From NCBI GenBank assembly GCA_021739625.1, contig JAIPBJ010000024.1, positions 1-35,973 of the forward strand: a DNA stretch of 35,973 bases. Reading direction: 5' to 3'. How positions within the stretch are numbered: the stretch's first letter is position 1; every line of letters begins with the position of its first letter. The position numbers and the translations under genes are program-made. The DNA is from Flavobacteriales bacterium (GTDB taxonomy: Bacteria; Bacteroidota; Bacteroidia; UBA10329). Of this stretch, positions 27,728-33,369 are shown in pieces. The notes beneath the pieces are model-generated. The model had not been told where the DNA came from and ran no database searches. It was given only the letters and a program-made list of their open reading frames with translations.

Positions 27728-28681
27728 CTACTGAATGATGAACCTGCCTGTGTTTACCGATGCACCATCCATGATGCGGTACAGGTAAACGCCATTCTGG
27801 CAAGCGGTCATGTCTATATGTGTGCGGCTGCCCTCCAACATCTCGCTGTATATCTCTTGCCCCTGCATGTTGATGATACTGAGCAGCGCACCCGATGACG
27901 CATTGTGGTCGAGCACGAACTGCCCATTGCCCGGATTAGGATAGACATTGGTTGCCAAAGCTCCTTCCTGTTCGCTCACCGAGGTGATTCGGGTGCAGAA
28001 ATCGTTGAAGCTGCTCGTCACCTCGTTCTCAGAGAGTACATGGTCTGCCATGCGGATAAGGGCCACCTTGCCCGGTGATGCCTCGTTGGTCACCATGTTG
28101 TCATCGCGGAAAAACTTGATACTGTCATTGGGTGCACTGCCGATCACATAGTGGTTGGCGTTGTCCACGAAGGTTGAGAACAGCTCGGCATTGAAGTAGA
28201 TTCTCATTTCCTTGGTGTCTGCGCTTCGGGTTACTACGACCTGCTTGTAGTTCGTAGTGTCAAATGCGTCAGGACAGGTGCCGATATTACCATTGGGATA
28301 GAAGTTGAGGCAAGTGCTCAGCGTGTAGATTCCTGCATCAGATCCGCTATTCGAAAAGTCGATGATGCGATTGTAGCCGTTCAATTCATCGAACTTGAAG
28401 ATCATCTCAATACTGTACGTGTCTGAGAAGAATGCCTTGGCCTTGAAACCCGAATTGTGTGCGAACCGGGTAAGGTTGATGGTAGGGGTCTGCGGGCAGG
28501 TGGTCGATGGTATGGTCATCGCCACAGGGGTCTCCGAAGGGCCGATGGTCTGAAGAGTCGGCCCTCCCGAAGGAATGCTGGTGAACGGTGTGCCTGAGAA
28601 CAGGTAGGTGTAGGACTGCTGCGCGCTCAATGACAGTGCAGTGGCGGTAAGCAGCATAGCGGTAAGTAGGTGTTTCTTCAT
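27728..28681 (-). CDS. T9SS-sorted protein with LamG/concanavalin-like domain
   Basis: This 317-residue protein has a signal peptide (MKKHLLTAMLLTATALSLSA, cut near AQQS), a jelly-roll-like region (about 55-230) of the LamG/concanavalin A type, with YSIEMIFKFDELNGYNRIIDF, YKQVVVTRSADTKEMRIYFN and GKVALIRMADHVLSENEV, and a C-terminal type A T9SS sorting domain (about 245-317): VYPNPGNGQFVLDHN, INMQGQEIYSEM, NGVYLYRIMDG and a final RFIIQ. It is a surface or secreted protein, probably binding glycan or another surface partner. It has no enzymatic motif. It lies 155 bases downstream of the DUF3570 gene on the same strand, with no clear terminator between, so read-through is possible. Confidence 0.88.
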   Translation of the reverse strand: MKKHLLTAMLLTATALSLSAQQSYTYLFSGTPFTSIPSGGPTLQTIGPSETPVAMTIPSTTCPQTPTINLTRFAHNSGFKAKAFFSDTYSIEMIFKFDELNGYNRIIDFSNSGSDAGIYTLSTCLNFYPNGNIGTCPDAFDTTNYKQVVVTRSADTKEMRIYFNAELFSTFVDNANHYVIGSAPNDSIKFFRDDNMVTNEASPGKVALIRMADHVLSENEVTSSFNDFCTRITSVSEQEGALATNVYPNPGNGQFVLDHNASSGALLSIINMQGQEIYSEMLEGSRTHIDMTACQNGVYLYRIMDGASVNTGRFIIQ

Positions 28682-28836: not shown

Positions 28837-30060
28837 CTACCTGTCGATGGTGAAATTCAGGCCGAGGGTCCACACATTGGCACGGAGACCATCGCTCCGG
28901 TCATAGCGAGCATAGCGCAAATCGATGCTTTTGAGCATGCTCACCTTCTGTCTGCGGAAAAGTCCTTTCCAGTGGAGCACGCCCATCAGTGGAGAAATAG
29001 AAATGCCAATGCCATACTTATGGCTGTTCAAGGTCGAAAGGTCATAATCGCAGGTATAGAATTCATCGGTCACCGAATGTTCGCCCTTGGCCATGAAATA
29101 TGGTGTCCCGAACTGCTGATGGAAACGATAGAACGGATAGAGACTGATGGTTCTGGCAATGACCACGGGAATCTCAATGGTCACAGTATTGCCGATGAGC
29201 GACCACGTGTCCCAGTAGAAACGGTAATGGCTACGGATGAACAGATAATCTGTGATGGCGATGTTGAGCCTCAGCCCGACTGGAATCTTCAGCCTGCTTC
29301 CGGGAAGCTGTTCCACTTTCACCCTTGGATGATCCCTGAAATACACCCGGTGAAACGGAGTGCTGAGCATACCGAACTGATAGGCCATGTCCACCGTGAC
29401 GGACGTCTGCACGCGTTTTGTCAGCACGAACGAACCTGTGGTGCTCAAGTTGACTGTGTGGCGCTGGTTTGTACTGAGCCAATGCACATTCCCATTCCTC
29501 AGTTCCACAGGATAGATCAGTTTCCATTCATCCTTGTAATAGCTTGCCTTGAAGCTTATGTCGCGGTTGTGATCCCTGCTCGACTTCTGAAACGATGCTC
29601 CGGCCTGTAGGGAGATCACATCGAACTCCTTCGAGAATCCTATCGACACACCCGACACAGTATTGCTCTTCGAGTGTTTGTAGTGATAGCCAAGCGTAGC
29701 ATAGTACCGTTGGTCAGAGGCCGAGGCCGAAGAGACGTGCTTGTCTGACAGGTAAGGATTGTTGATGTTGTCTGACGAGGCCGATGAATAGAAGTCGACC
29801 CCACCGGAAAGGGACACCCCATGTGCTGTATCTATCGGAACATTGACCACGATTGATGGGGCAATGTTCATAAGCTTCTCGGTTCCCTGCCCTCCGGTCA
29901 CGGGAGAGTGGTTGCCGTCCTGCATATAGTAGCTCCCAAGGATGGAGACCTCAATATCGTCCAGGTTTATCTTGGATCTGGCATCTTCCTGAGCCTGCGT
30001 TTCCATCAGGGAAAGACACAGGGCAACGACCAATGTGGGAAATCTCAGTTGCATCCGCAT
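28837..30060 (-). CDS. DUF3570 outer-membrane beta-barrel protein
   Basis: This 407-residue protein has a signal peptide (MRMQLRFPTLVVALCLSLMETQAQ) and then alternating amphipathic strands (for example MNIAPSIVVNVPID, GVSLSGGVDFY, YYATLGYHYKH, GVSIGFSKEF, ISFKASYYKD) to a final strand VWTLGLNFTIDR, the pattern of an outer-membrane barrel. SSASSDNINNPY and AYDRSDGLR-like segments fit DUF3570. Function unknown. The ATG at 30060 (or 30054) lies inside the 3' end of the DUF4266 gene; the overlap of 16 bases implies translational coupling. It is the last gene of a five-gene redox operon and may form its outer-membrane component. Only one cysteine is present in the mature part, and I see no S/T-G-A-T-like flavin attachment motif. 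Confidence 0.88.
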   Translation of the reverse strand: MRMQLRFPTLVVALCLSLMETQAQEDARSKINLDDIEVSILGSYYMQDGNHSPVTGGQGTEKLMNIAPSIVVNVPIDTAHGVSLSGGVDFYSSASSDNINNPYLSDKHVSSASASDQRYYATLGYHYKHSKSNTVSGVSIGFSKEFDVISLQAGASFQKSSRDHNRDISFKASYYKDEWKLIYPVELRNGNVHWLSTNQRHTVNLSTTGSFVLTKRVQTSVTVDMAYQFGMLSTPFHRVYFRDHPRVKVEQLPGSRLKIPVGLRLNIAITDYLFIRSHYRFYWDTWSLIGNTVTIEIPVVIARTISLYPFYRFHQQFGTPYFMAKGEHSVTDEFYTCDYDLSTLNSHKYGIGISISPLMGVLHWKGLFRRQKVSMLKSIDLRYARYDRSDGLRANVWTLGLNFTIDR

Positions 30061-30272
30061 CCTCCACCGATTTTACCGCCCATGCCTCCCGAAGGACCTT
30101 CCCTATAGGTGACGAACCCTTCTTCAAAGGTTCCGATCTTCCCATCGGAGAGTTTCATATTCTCGTTGTTGAGATACATTTTCTGATATTCTTTAACGCT
30201 GACGCAGCTATGCAGGGCAAGCATTCCGGTCAGAATGCAGGCCGCGGTCAGCACCTTGTGCTTCCTTCTCAT
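30045..30272 (-). CDS. DUF4266 small lipoprotein with Gly/Cys-rich tail
   Basis: This 75-residue protein starts with a lipoprotein signal peptide (lipobox LHSC, lipid-bearing Cys23), then VSVKEYQKMYLNNENMKLSD (24-43), typical of DUF4266, and ends SGGMGGKIGGGCGCN (61-75). The mature part is only 53 residues. The two tail cysteines (Cys72, Cys74) separated by one glycine could bind a metal, form a disulfide with a thioredoxin partner, or be modified. ATGA overlaps the ApbE stop, and the end overlaps the DUF3570 start. No function is known to me for this family; its constant company with ApbE and DUF3570 suggests it is part of the same extracytoplasmic redox unit. Confidence 0.9.
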   Translation of the reverse strand: MRRKHKVLTAACILTGMLALHSCVSVKEYQKMYLNNENMKLSDGKIGTFEEGFVTYREGPSGGMGGKIGGGCGCN

Positions 30273-31255
30273 TTCAGTCGTGTCTCAATGTTGTTCGAGT
30301 AATGATAGTGCATGTCCTCATCAATCAGGATGCATTCCACATCCTCCAGATGATTGACGAGTTTCAGGCCGTCCTCTTTGCCAAGCACGAACACGGTGGT
30401 GGCGAGCGCATCGGCCAGTTCGGCATCGGGGCAGAAAATGGTCACGCTCAGCAGACCTGTCGCAGGCCATCCTGTCTTGGGGTCGATGATGTGTCCATGG
30501 CGTTTGCCGTCTATCACCACGAACTTCTCGTAGCTGCCCGAGGTCACCACTGCCATGTCGGTCACATCGGTCCACGCAAGGATATTGGTCTTTTCCTTTG
30601 GGTCGGCTATACCTATGGACCACGGTTTTCCATCAATCTGAGGGCCCCATGCGATAAGGTCTCCACCCGCGTTCACCACTCCCGATGTCACGCCCATGTC
30701 CAGCATCACCTGTTTGGCGCGATTGGCAGCATATCCTTTTCCGATGCCCCCGAACCCGATCTTCATGCCCTCATCCTGAAGAAAGACCGTTCCTTTCTCG
30801 GGGTCAACAATGATCTTCTCATAGCCGATCCTCTTCACAGACCGGGCAACAAGGGCCGCATCGGGTGCGGGCATCACCCTGCCATCAAACCACCATATAT
30901 TGTCAATGGATGCGAAACTGATGTCGAAATAGCCATTGGACACCTGCGAGATCTTCTTGCTCCGCTGAATGAGCCGAATCAGTTCGTCACTGACACTCAC
31001 CGGACTGATTCCCGCATTCCTGTTAATGGATGAGGTCTCTGAACCATCCATCCATTCGCTGATTACATTCTCGATGCGCTGCACTTCTGCAATTGCCGCA
31101 TCTATGGCCCGTTGGGCGGTGACGGTGTCGGAATGAACGGCAGTGAAAGCAAATGCCGAGCCCATCAATTTAGTACTTCGCGAAACAGACACTTGCCCGA
31201 TTGCGGGCAGGCAAAGGGCCACTAGCCAACAGACTATCACAATTGCAAATCTCAT
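30269..31255 (-). CDS. apbE: ApbE-type FAD:protein FMN transferase
   Basis: This 328-residue protein has an N-terminal signal or lipoprotein-like hydrophobic segment (about 3-20) and an ApbE domain (about 25-325): LMGSAFAFT (30-38), IENVISEWMDGSETSSINRN (61-80), FGGIGKGYAANRA (168-180), NAGGDL (195-200), the conserved HIIDPKTG (255-262), and DALATTVFVLG (282-292), with Asp282 and Thr286/287 at the magnesium site. ApbE moves FMN from FAD onto a serine or threonine of a target protein outside the cytoplasmic membrane. The target is usually an Rnf, Nqr or FMN-binding-domain protein. None is encoded here, and none of the partners shows an obvious S/T-G-A-S/T motif. It overlaps the thioredoxin gene upstream by ATGA and the DUF4266 gene downstream by ATGA. 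Confidence 0.94.
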   Translation of the reverse strand: MRFAIVIVCWLVALCLPAIGQVSVSRSTKLMGSAFAFTAVHSDTVTAQRAIDAAIAEVQRIENVISEWMDGSETSSINRNAGISPVSVSDELIRLIQRSKKISQVSNGYFDISFASIDNIWWFDGRVMPAPDAALVARSVKRIGYEKIIVDPEKGTVFLQDEGMKIGFGGIGKGYAANRAKQVMLDMGVTSGVVNAGGDLIAWGPQIDGKPWSIGIADPKEKTNILAWTDVTDMAVVTSGSYEKFVVIDGKRHGHIIDPKTGWPATGLLSVTIFCPDAELADALATTVFVLGKEDGLKLVNHLEDVECILIDEDMHYHYSNNIETRLK

Positions 31256-31701
31256 TTGTCGGGCATTTCACTCAGACCCTTGACATATGCCTCAGGAGTA
31301 TCGAGAGGATAGGGCATTTTTCTGATGATCACGCCCTCGGCATCAAGGATCAGCGTGGTCGGAAACTCACCCTTGCTGTTGTATCTCTCCGCCAGTTGCT
31401 CGTTGTGCTTTGTCTGTTCGGGCGAAAGCTTGTTCTTGGCCTTCACGGGAAAATCCAATTTCAACAGCACCAGATGCTCTTTGGCATACTCGGCAAATGC
31501 GGCACTCTGGAAGAGTGTCTTGTCCAGCCGGATGCAGTTGCCACACCAGTCAGATCCCGAAAAGTTCATCAGAATGACCTTGCCTTCCGATTTGGCCGTG
31601 GCTTTCGACTGCTCGAAATCCGTCATCCAGTTCACCTCCTGAGCTAAGGCAGTTGCAGTCGTTGAAAGCAACAATGCCAATGACAATATCTTAATTCTCA
31701 T
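31252..31701 (-). CDS. Thioredoxin-family protein, exported
   Basis: This 149-residue protein has a signal peptide (MRIKILSLALLLSTTATALA) and a thioredoxin fold: KVILMNFSGSDWCGNCIRLDK (41-61) with active-site Cys53-Gly-Asn-Cys56, and GEFPTTLILD with the cis-proline. The WCGNC motif and the SxWC context resemble periplasmic thiol reductases of the DsbD-gamma/thioredoxin_7 type rather than cytoplasmic thioredoxin. It could keep the cysteines of the DUF4266 tail or the cytochrome heme-binding cysteines reduced. It starts 9 bases after the cytochrome gene stop and overlaps the apbE start by 4 bases. Confidence 0.9.
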   Translation of the reverse strand: MRIKILSLALLLSTTATALAQEVNWMTDFEQSKATAKSEGKVILMNFSGSDWCGNCIRLDKTLFQSAAFAEYAKEHLVLLKLDFPVKAKNKLSPEQTKHNEQLAERYNSKGEFPTTLILDAEGVIIRKMPYPLDTPEAYVKGLSEMPDK

Positions 31702-31710
31702 GATGCTTAT

Positions 31711-32208
31711 TCAGTCTGCACGTTCAATTCGGTCGGTGGTCACACCATGACAGGTGTTGCAACTCCCATAGTAGATCTGTCCCTGTGGGCCCACATCGGG
31801 GTGAAGTTCATCCTCGTCATCCTCCATCCATTCGAATTTGTTGCCTGTTCGTATCCCCACGAACACACCATCATCCCCGAAATCGACTGGATCTGTTGTG
31901 TAGAAATTGCCTTCCCCATCCACCTCTAAGGCCAAGAAACGGGGGCCATTCTTGCTTCGGTAAAACTCGATCAGACTGTGACCCGCATTTCTCTCCACCG
32001 ATCCGGCAACTGTGAACCAGCCCTCGCCAGATCCTCCCTGTGTGTGACAGTTCATACAGGTTTCGCCATTGTGATGGCTCTCATCATCACCGAACTCGCT
32101 GGTCTCGTCCTCATCGTCCGGGCCTGGAAGACCGAGGCACGAGGTTAAGAACAATGTCAACATGCAACCCATCAATAGGGCCAAGAGACAATTGCTGGGG
32201 AGTTTCAT
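31711..32208 (-). CDS. Diheme c-type cytochrome lipoprotein
   Basis: This 165-residue protein starts at ATG 32208 (an in-frame TTG lies 12 bases upstream). It has a lipoprotein signal (lipobox LTSC, lipid-bearing Cys24), an acidic linker (DDEDETSEFGDDESHH, about 31-46), and two heme-binding motifs: CMNCH (51-55) and CNTCH (150-154). Between them is a region with a second acidic run (EWMEDDEDELHPD), about 95 residues without a further CxxCH. Attachment of two hemes is expected, but I cannot assign it to a named cytochrome family. It is the first gene of the operon with thioredoxin, ApbE, DUF4266 and DUF3570, which suggests electron transfer outside the cytoplasmic membrane. Confidence 0.82.
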   Translation of the reverse strand: MKLPSNCLLALLMGCMLTLFLTSCLGLPGPDDEDETSEFGDDESHHNGETCMNCHTQGGSGEGWFTVAGSVERNAGHSLIEFYRSKNGPRFLALEVDGEGNFYTTDPVDFGDDGVFVGIRTGNKFEWMEDDEDELHPDVGPQGQIYYGSCNTCHGVTTDRIERAD

Positions 32209-32592: not shown

Positions 32593-33369
32593 ATGACTTC
32601 ACTTGCTCTCGTCTGGTTCAAGGTGTTCCTGCTCACCTCGTTGCGCTATCTGGTCTTTGCATCTGCTGCCTTCTTCCCCGTGCATTGGATGAAAGAACGA
32701 TTGGCTTGGCGAAAGATTCAGAAGGCGTTCCCAAAAGGCCAGGACTATCGCAGAGAGATTATCTATTCGTTCGGCACCTTCTGCGTGTTCGGATTCACGG
32801 GCACTTTCATCTACATGATGCTGAACCATACGCAGATATACATGGGCGTGCAAGACTATCCACTTTGGTGGCTGCTGCTTAGCGTACCCATCGCTCTGGT
32901 GATCCATGACACCTATTTCTATTGGACCCACCGCATCATGCATCATCCTGCGCTGTTCAAGGTCATGCATTTGGTGCATCACAGGAGTACCAATCCATCT
33001 CCGTGGGCATCATTCGCATTCCATCCGCTGGAGTCGGTGGTCGAAAGCGGAATTCTCATCGTTCTTGTCTTTCTCATGCCCATGCATCCGTTGGCCATTC
33101 TGGCATTTTTGCTCATTATGACTGGCGAGAACGTGATGGGCCATCTAGGCTATGAGTTCTTTCCCGCATGGCTCACACAAGGCAGCATCGGCAAGTGGCT
33201 CAACAGTAGCACCAATCACAACATGCACCACCGCTATTTCGAGGGAAATTATGGTCTCTATTTCCGCTGGTGGGACGTGTGGATGGGCACCACACACCCG
33301 AAGTATGACGAAACCCTGGCCGAGATTCAACAACGCGTTTCGAATCAGGCACCGGGCATGAAAGGTTGA
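32593..33369 (+). CDS. Sterol desaturase/fatty acid hydroxylase family protein
   Basis: This 258-residue membrane protein with about five helices has the full histidine set of the diiron fatty-acid-hydroxylase superfamily: HDTYFYWTHRIMHH (105-118), HLVHH (126-130), HPLESVVE (144-151) and NHNMHHRYFEGNYG (208-221). Members insert oxygen into or desaturate lipids, sterols or carotenoids at the membrane. The bacterial substrate cannot be read from sequence; a fatty acyl chain or hopanoid/carotenoid is possible. The next gene is a fatty acid desaturase, with about 120 bases and a -7-like box between, so the two are neighbours but may be transcribed separately. Confidence 0.92.
   Translation: MTSLALVWFKVFLLTSLRYLVFASAAFFPVHWMKERLAWRKIQKAFPKGQDYRREIIYSFGTFCVFGFTGTFIYMMLNHTQIYMGVQDYPLWWLLLSVPIALVIHDTYFYWTHRIMHHPALFKVMHLVHHRSTNPSPWASFAFHPLESVVESGILIVLVFLMPMHPLAILAFLLIMTGENVMGHLGYEFFPAWLTQGSIGKWLNSSTNHNMHHRYFEGNYGLYFRWWDVWMGTTHPKYDETLAEIQQRVSNQAPGMKG

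Follow-up and report, generated by a model that had tools for sequence, protein, structure and literature searches.

What would be the common task of five tightly packed genes that encode a cytochrome-like lipoprotein, a thioredoxin-like protein (Trx), the flavin transferase ApbE and members of the families DUF4266 and DUF3570, all apparently exported from the cytoplasm? To address this question we analysed the cluster which carries them on a stretch of 35,973 nucleotides (the window) comprising contig JAIPBJ010000024.1 of a Flavobacteriales bacterium (assembly GCA_021739625.1). The operon is a variant of a gene set published as the "DsbD system" (Méheust et al. 2021, PMC8238504); the core idea had already been published and four of the five genes were known. 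We propose, with a probability of about 0.6, that the operon encodes a flavinylation module of the DsbD class extended by one carrier, which would conduct electrons from the periplasm to a flavin bound to the DUF3570 barrel. New here are the topology predicted for DUF3570 from models and alignments, a diheme partner for which the trees suggest a single-clade history, and a putatively exchangeable slot upstream of the cluster.

Relation to a published flavinylation system

The original prediction had assumed no established function for these genes and regarded the small DUF4266 lipoprotein as the centre of the system. Both assumptions had to be revised, as co-expression revealed that ApbE flavinylates DUF3570 of Chlorobium luteolum at two serines of [S/T]GA[S/T] motifs; the known ApbE target is thus the flavoprotein barrel itself (PMC8238504). 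Of the flavinylation clusters which the same study described, 285 carried DsbD, and among these DUF3570 was present in 227, DUF4266 in 221 and a thioredoxin-like gene in 183; another 316 clusters comprised the four genes but lacked DsbD. The authors pointed out that DUF4266 ends in CXC and proposed a hybrid route of thioredoxin and flavin; the main text mentions neither a barrel nor Rieske proteins. Our literature search found DUF4266 or DUF3570 named only in this paper; the main text of a 2024 follow-up on the structures of flavinylated domains (PMC11334425, and a preprint) leaves DUF3570 unmentioned.

With the DsbD-type clusters the window operon shares ApbE, DUF3570, DUF4266 with its CXC end and an exported Trx similar to Thioredoxin_7. 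It differs from them by the diheme lipoprotein added at its head, by flavinylation motifs of the form SSAS and by the missing DsbD gene, which is also missing from the 316 published clusters and is therefore not obligatory. Covalent attachment of flavin mononucleotide (FMN) to serine or threonine by ApbE is common to DUF3570 and the FMN-bind proteins NqrC and RnfG (PMC8238504, PMC12052999), whereas the substrate fold and the membrane are different. FMN_bind genes were found elsewhere in the host genome, one of them in an apparent Rnf cluster.

The distribution of the gene set was determined in a sample of 395 genomes of the phylum, weighted toward a few families, and the content of the host genome was searched family by family. 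DUF4266 occurred in 113 genomes (about 29%) and DUF3570 in 118; all 113 genomes with DUF4266 also hold DUF3570, which was found without DUF4266 in five genomes (G221, G233, G284, G354 and G370). We read 49 loci in detail, which had been selected for holding DUF4266. Far from mostly lacking the expected partners, they contained DUF3570 in 48 cases, ApbE in 46 and a Trx-like gene in 44. The recurrence of DUF4266/DUF3570/ApbE neighbourhoods, which the original prediction had pointed out, was confirmed by these loci as well as by the published clusters (PMC8238504).

In other lineages, including family f19, DsbD is encoded within the cluster. The host genome carries a long DsbD-family gene (C96) located away from the cluster; its product (L083:4675-7137) shows two seemingly tandem, similar N-terminal segments before the membrane domain. 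Within the host genus, the cluster was present in two of nine genomes. Exactly these two carry a second ApbE gene, while the other seven carry one, three of these seven genomes being less than 90% complete. With two ApbE copies confined to the cluster holders, and the second ApbE of genome G005 located some 6 kb away from an FMN_bind gene, the ApbE of the cluster looks dedicated. At locus L059 (6500-7930), one open reading frame matches both ApbE and Trx profiles, an apparent natural fusion.

The predicted DUF3570 barrel and its candidate flavin sites

Modelling of DUF3570 with AlphaFold2 on 40 homologues yielded a structure with 16 strands by count, a predicted local distance difference test (pLDDT) score of 86 and a predicted template modelling (pTM) score of 0.81. 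Its fold matches in the PDB were outer-membrane porins, e.g. OccK, OmpG and AlgE, and the strongly conserved strand residues, as judged from hydrophobic alternation, nearly all face the lumen. According to this model, DUF3570 is almost certainly an outer-membrane barrel. Both termini are located on one side, where turns are short (mean 6 residues), while the loops on the opposite side are longer (mean 13.5 residues). Since the termini of outer-membrane barrels are periplasmic by the standard rule, the long loops are predicted to face outward.

Both candidate flavinylation motifs are found in or at the edge of a single loop (residues 93-115) on the side opposite to the termini. Conserved residues are concentrated on this side, both in the loops (32 of 108 residues against 1 of 45 on the other side, p = 6e-5) and in the adjoining halves of the strands (26 of 105 against 8 of 112, p = 4e-4). 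The loop contrast was significant within the class at a 90% threshold and phylum-wide at 70% (p = 2e-4), and not significant phylum-wide at 85% (p = 0.44). The flavin of DUF3570 is rather likely to be situated at the outward end.

The flavinylation consensus reads D-x-x-[S/T]-G-A-[S/T] (PMC12052999). In the class of the window, 29 of 34 sequences have TSAS or SSAS at the first site; most other sampled lineages, including f19, have SGAS or TGAS in the same column after the expected aspartate, and the relative L114 has SGAS at the second site. The alignment thus points to SSAS as a likely flavinylation site, and ApbE very probably flavinylates the DUF3570 protein of the window. In the barrels of L045 and L068 the second motif is lost (GGAK/GRAK) and in L068 the first is altered as well (TAAS); judged by their sequences, these barrels are possibly single-flavin or flavin-free.

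Several points weigh against the proposed function. The aligned sites of the window protein both read SSAS instead of the tested [S/T]GA[S/T], and in another protein the replacement of glycine by alanine reduced flavinylation (PMC12052999). At the second site the usual aspartate is absent, and several homologues lack this site or carry it in changed form. The pLDDT of the motif loop is near 50 or less, so that the model does not predict the position of FMN in the loop or lumen, and the outward orientation of the motif side derives from a general rule for barrels. Furthermore, the proteins were modelled as single chains, while the proposed relay would operate between chains, and the window cluster contains no DsbD gene.

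Proposed electron transfer towards the barrel

We infer the following path for the electrons. Their source would most likely be DsbD encoded elsewhere in the genome, the likely inner-membrane donor, which would reduce the WCGNC motif of the exported Trx. From there they would reach the pair of CXC thiols with which the flexible, glycine-rich tail of DUF4266 ends, an ending present in all 49 DUF4266 proteins. Tethered to the membrane by its lipid, this tail could extend into the barrel lumen and pass the electrons to FMN at the outward end, which ApbE would have attached covalently to one or two serines (S95 and S113) of one DUF3570 loop. The diheme lipoprotein would have an accessory part, carrying single electrons at one of the ends of the chain, in the slot that a Rieske or another heme protein occupies in other lineages. 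A thiol relay between Trx and flavin by the CXC end of DUF4266 is somewhat more likely than not.

Pairs of the CXC type are widespread in thiol-disulfide chemistry, and the Trx resembles DsbH and the Trx domains of DsbD. These features would also suit a thiol repair or maturation system, in which Trx and DUF4266 maintain the reduced state of an outer-membrane protein, with the flavin as a sensor or scavenger of oxidants. Such a role is quite improbable, as the conserved alignment columns of the barrel include no cysteine, and the dedicated ApbE and the heme or Rieske partners would be left unexplained. The direction of the proposed flow deserves similar consideration. Cytochrome, Rieske and thiol partners could operate both ways and the carriers of the upstream slot vary by lineage, which is compatible with an inward chain, where an extracellular donor would supply electrons to the cytochrome or the surface flavin, for delivery to carriers in the periplasm. 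However, DsbD, which forms part of the cluster in other lineages, donates reducing power outward to thioredoxin-like proteins (PMC8238504). An inward chain therefore appears improbable, and outward flow is favoured with reasonable, though limited, confidence.

Regarding the acceptor of the electrons, genes of the ferrous iron transporter VIT1 are found near eight DUF4266 loci and in 25 published clusters (PMC8238504), and these neighbours in other genomes make iron a fair candidate. In addition, CusA-like RND (resistance-nodulation-division) pump genes for metal efflux, some with CusB-like partners, occur within about 8 kb in eight of the 49 DUF4266 loci (L042, L054, L058, L036, L041, L048, L060 and the same-genus relative L035), which suggests a tie of the cluster to metal stress. 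Both groups of neighbours could speak for an assimilatory reductase, i.e. a barrel whose FMN reduces Fe(III) or another metal at the cell surface so that it can be taken up. Such a function would be compatible with the mechanism proposed above. It is nevertheless unlikely, because no transporter, VIT1 included, was seen next to the cluster of the window, VIT1 is absent from most loci, and heme carriers, which themselves cost iron, would be odd in a system for iron starvation.

The proposed transfer of electrons to the barrel flavin invites comparison with porin-cytochrome conduits of the MtrCAB type. Both combine an outer-membrane barrel with lipoprotein redox carriers and might transfer electrons across the outer membrane. 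In contrast to MtrCAB, no multiheme cytochrome gene is located beside the window cluster, whose sole heme protein has two CxxCH motifs; the barrel itself is expected to hold FMN and its partners are thiol and diheme proteins. To our knowledge, the routes by which electrons are known to cross the outer membrane depend on chains of hemes within a barrel. We tentatively suggest that DUF3570 might represent a new type of outer-membrane electron conduit, with loop-bound FMN at the outer rim that receives electrons through the lumen from the CXC tail of DUF4266, and with a connection to an exchangeable Rieske, diheme or multiheme protein. If thiol-fed DUF3570 flavins are indeed located at the outer rim, they would constitute a second bacterial way across the outer membrane, present in about 29% of the sampled genomes of the phylum, and a flavin and thiol counterpart of the porin-cytochrome conduits.

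The diheme lipoprotein, the upstream slot and the operon

The slot of the diheme lipoprotein is occupied by other redox proteins elsewhere. At 13 of 33 loci, the protein encoded next upstream of the cluster on the same strand contains a motif of the heme c or Rieske type, compared to 5 among 302 background genes (p = 4e-11, a value which overstates independence, since eight family labels account for the 13 cases). These carriers include a Rieske protein (c3) in seven loci of four families, confirmed by PF00355 in one, a protein weakly similar to cytochrome c3 (c10) in four loci, and the diheme lipoprotein in the window. The putatively exchangeable partner makes the electron path testable through carrier swaps, and the diheme variant would be a natural case of heme and flavin parts of a chain that are genetically joined. 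Heme-protein gene groups also adjoin the flavinylation cluster of other lineages (L077, L078 and L070); they include CxxCH proteins of about 400-440 residues, barrel-like by eye, and proteins with eight CxxCH motifs. The L078 protein of that size had no Pfam match.

The lipoprotein consists of a lipobox, an acidic stretch and a beta domain flanked by the heme motifs CMNCH and CNTCH. Its family has an invariant S44-H45 and a near-invariant M128, and H45 and M128 are candidate axial ligands. The host genome contains the genes for c-type cytochrome assembly. The structural model was fair (pLDDT 85), and neither sequence nor fold gave a PDB match at E<=0.001. The protein itself matched no Pfam family over the cut-off and two families below it, and 55 family members gave weak matches to various Pfam families (best E 2e-5), each of which was hit by at most 15 members. 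Neither Pfam nor PDB contains a counterpart of this protein family.

A scan of 84,980 species genomes identified 124 relatives of the lipoprotein, 80 of which were kept. The five-gene order of the window recurs in three of them: the same-genus locus L113, L114 from another Flavobacteriales genome, and L152, which is labelled Verrucomicrobia. Together with the window they group as a single clade in the DUF3570 tree (support 100/99) as well as in the cytochrome tree (95/94), likely reflecting a single event that joined the lipoprotein to the cluster, after which the unit was inherited or transferred as a whole. Lateral transfer to Verrucomicrobia is not claimed, as the contig of L152 carries seeming sorting tails of the type IX secretion system (T9SS) and the label may be a matter of binning. 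At 77 of the 80 loci neither DUF3570 nor DUF4266 is nearby and the family otherwise stands alone, as would be expected if the lipoprotein were a chance neighbour of a four-gene module. We rejected this explanation as very unlikely, in view of the same order in four loci with well-diverged DUF3570 proteins that form a single clade in both trees; the 9-base spacing and the enrichment of heme and Rieske proteins in that slot elsewhere also argue against it. The lipoprotein probably works in the same chain as the barrel flavin. The view of the original prediction that the genes handle electrons outside the cytoplasm and end in a barrel is well supported, but the cytochrome as a general member of the cluster was rejected, such a protein being encoded at two of the 49 DUF4266 loci. 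One stand-alone relative (L110:2457-8444, genome G049) directly follows a CusA/CusB-like gene pair.

Table 1. Genes and candidate flavinylation motifs of the window operon, in order of transcription
Feature	Position	Strand	Description
Cyt, diheme lipoprotein, 165 aa	32208-31711	-	two CxxCH; first in transcription order
Trx, exported thioredoxin-like, 149 aa	31701-31252	-	WCGNC; Thioredoxin_7 (6e-12), DsbH-like
ApbE, FAD:protein FMN transferase, 328 aa	31255-30269	-	Pfam ApbE (5e-81)
DUF4266 small lipoprotein, 75 aa	30272-30045	-	Pfam DUF4266 (4e-15); glycine-rich tail ending GGGCGCN (CXC)
DUF3570, 407 aa	30060-28837	-	Pfam DUF3570 (4e-16); predicted 16-strand outer-membrane barrel, predicted ApbE substrate
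First candidate motif, D89-F-Y-S-S-A-S95	29776..29796	-	D-x-x-[S/T]-G-A-[S/T] with G to S
Second candidate motif, S110-S-A-S113	29722..29733	-	same DUF3570 loop; no Asp at usual place

The coordinates of the open reading frames agree with the tight packing described originally, all five genes being located on the minus strand with junctions of +9, -4 (ATGA), -4 (ATGA) and -16 bases. Likewise, the export or lipoprotein signals ascribed to all five products were recognised in their sequences as lipoboxes of the diheme lipoprotein (LTSC) and DUF4266 (LHSC) and as Sec-type N-termini of Trx, ApbE and DUF3570. ApbE and DUF3570 both exceed the Pfam cut-off, and DUF4266 lies between them with overlapping reading frames. 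Scans for sigma-70 promoters and terminators gave no excess over shuffle expectation, and it is the gene overlap which suggests co-transcription. The operon is flanked at its 5′ side by a divergent gene of the fatty acid hydroxylase family (32593-33369) and at its 3′ side, at a distance of 155 bases, by a gene (27728-28681) encoding a T9SS tail and a laminin-G-like domain; the genes 3′ of the five-gene unit are different in L152 and L114. At 30045-30060 the codons for the CGCN end of DUF4266 overlap the start of DUF3570, a coupling which may constrain both proteins, and the DUF3570 start MRMQL is identical in all four five-gene clusters (the window, L113, L114 and L152).

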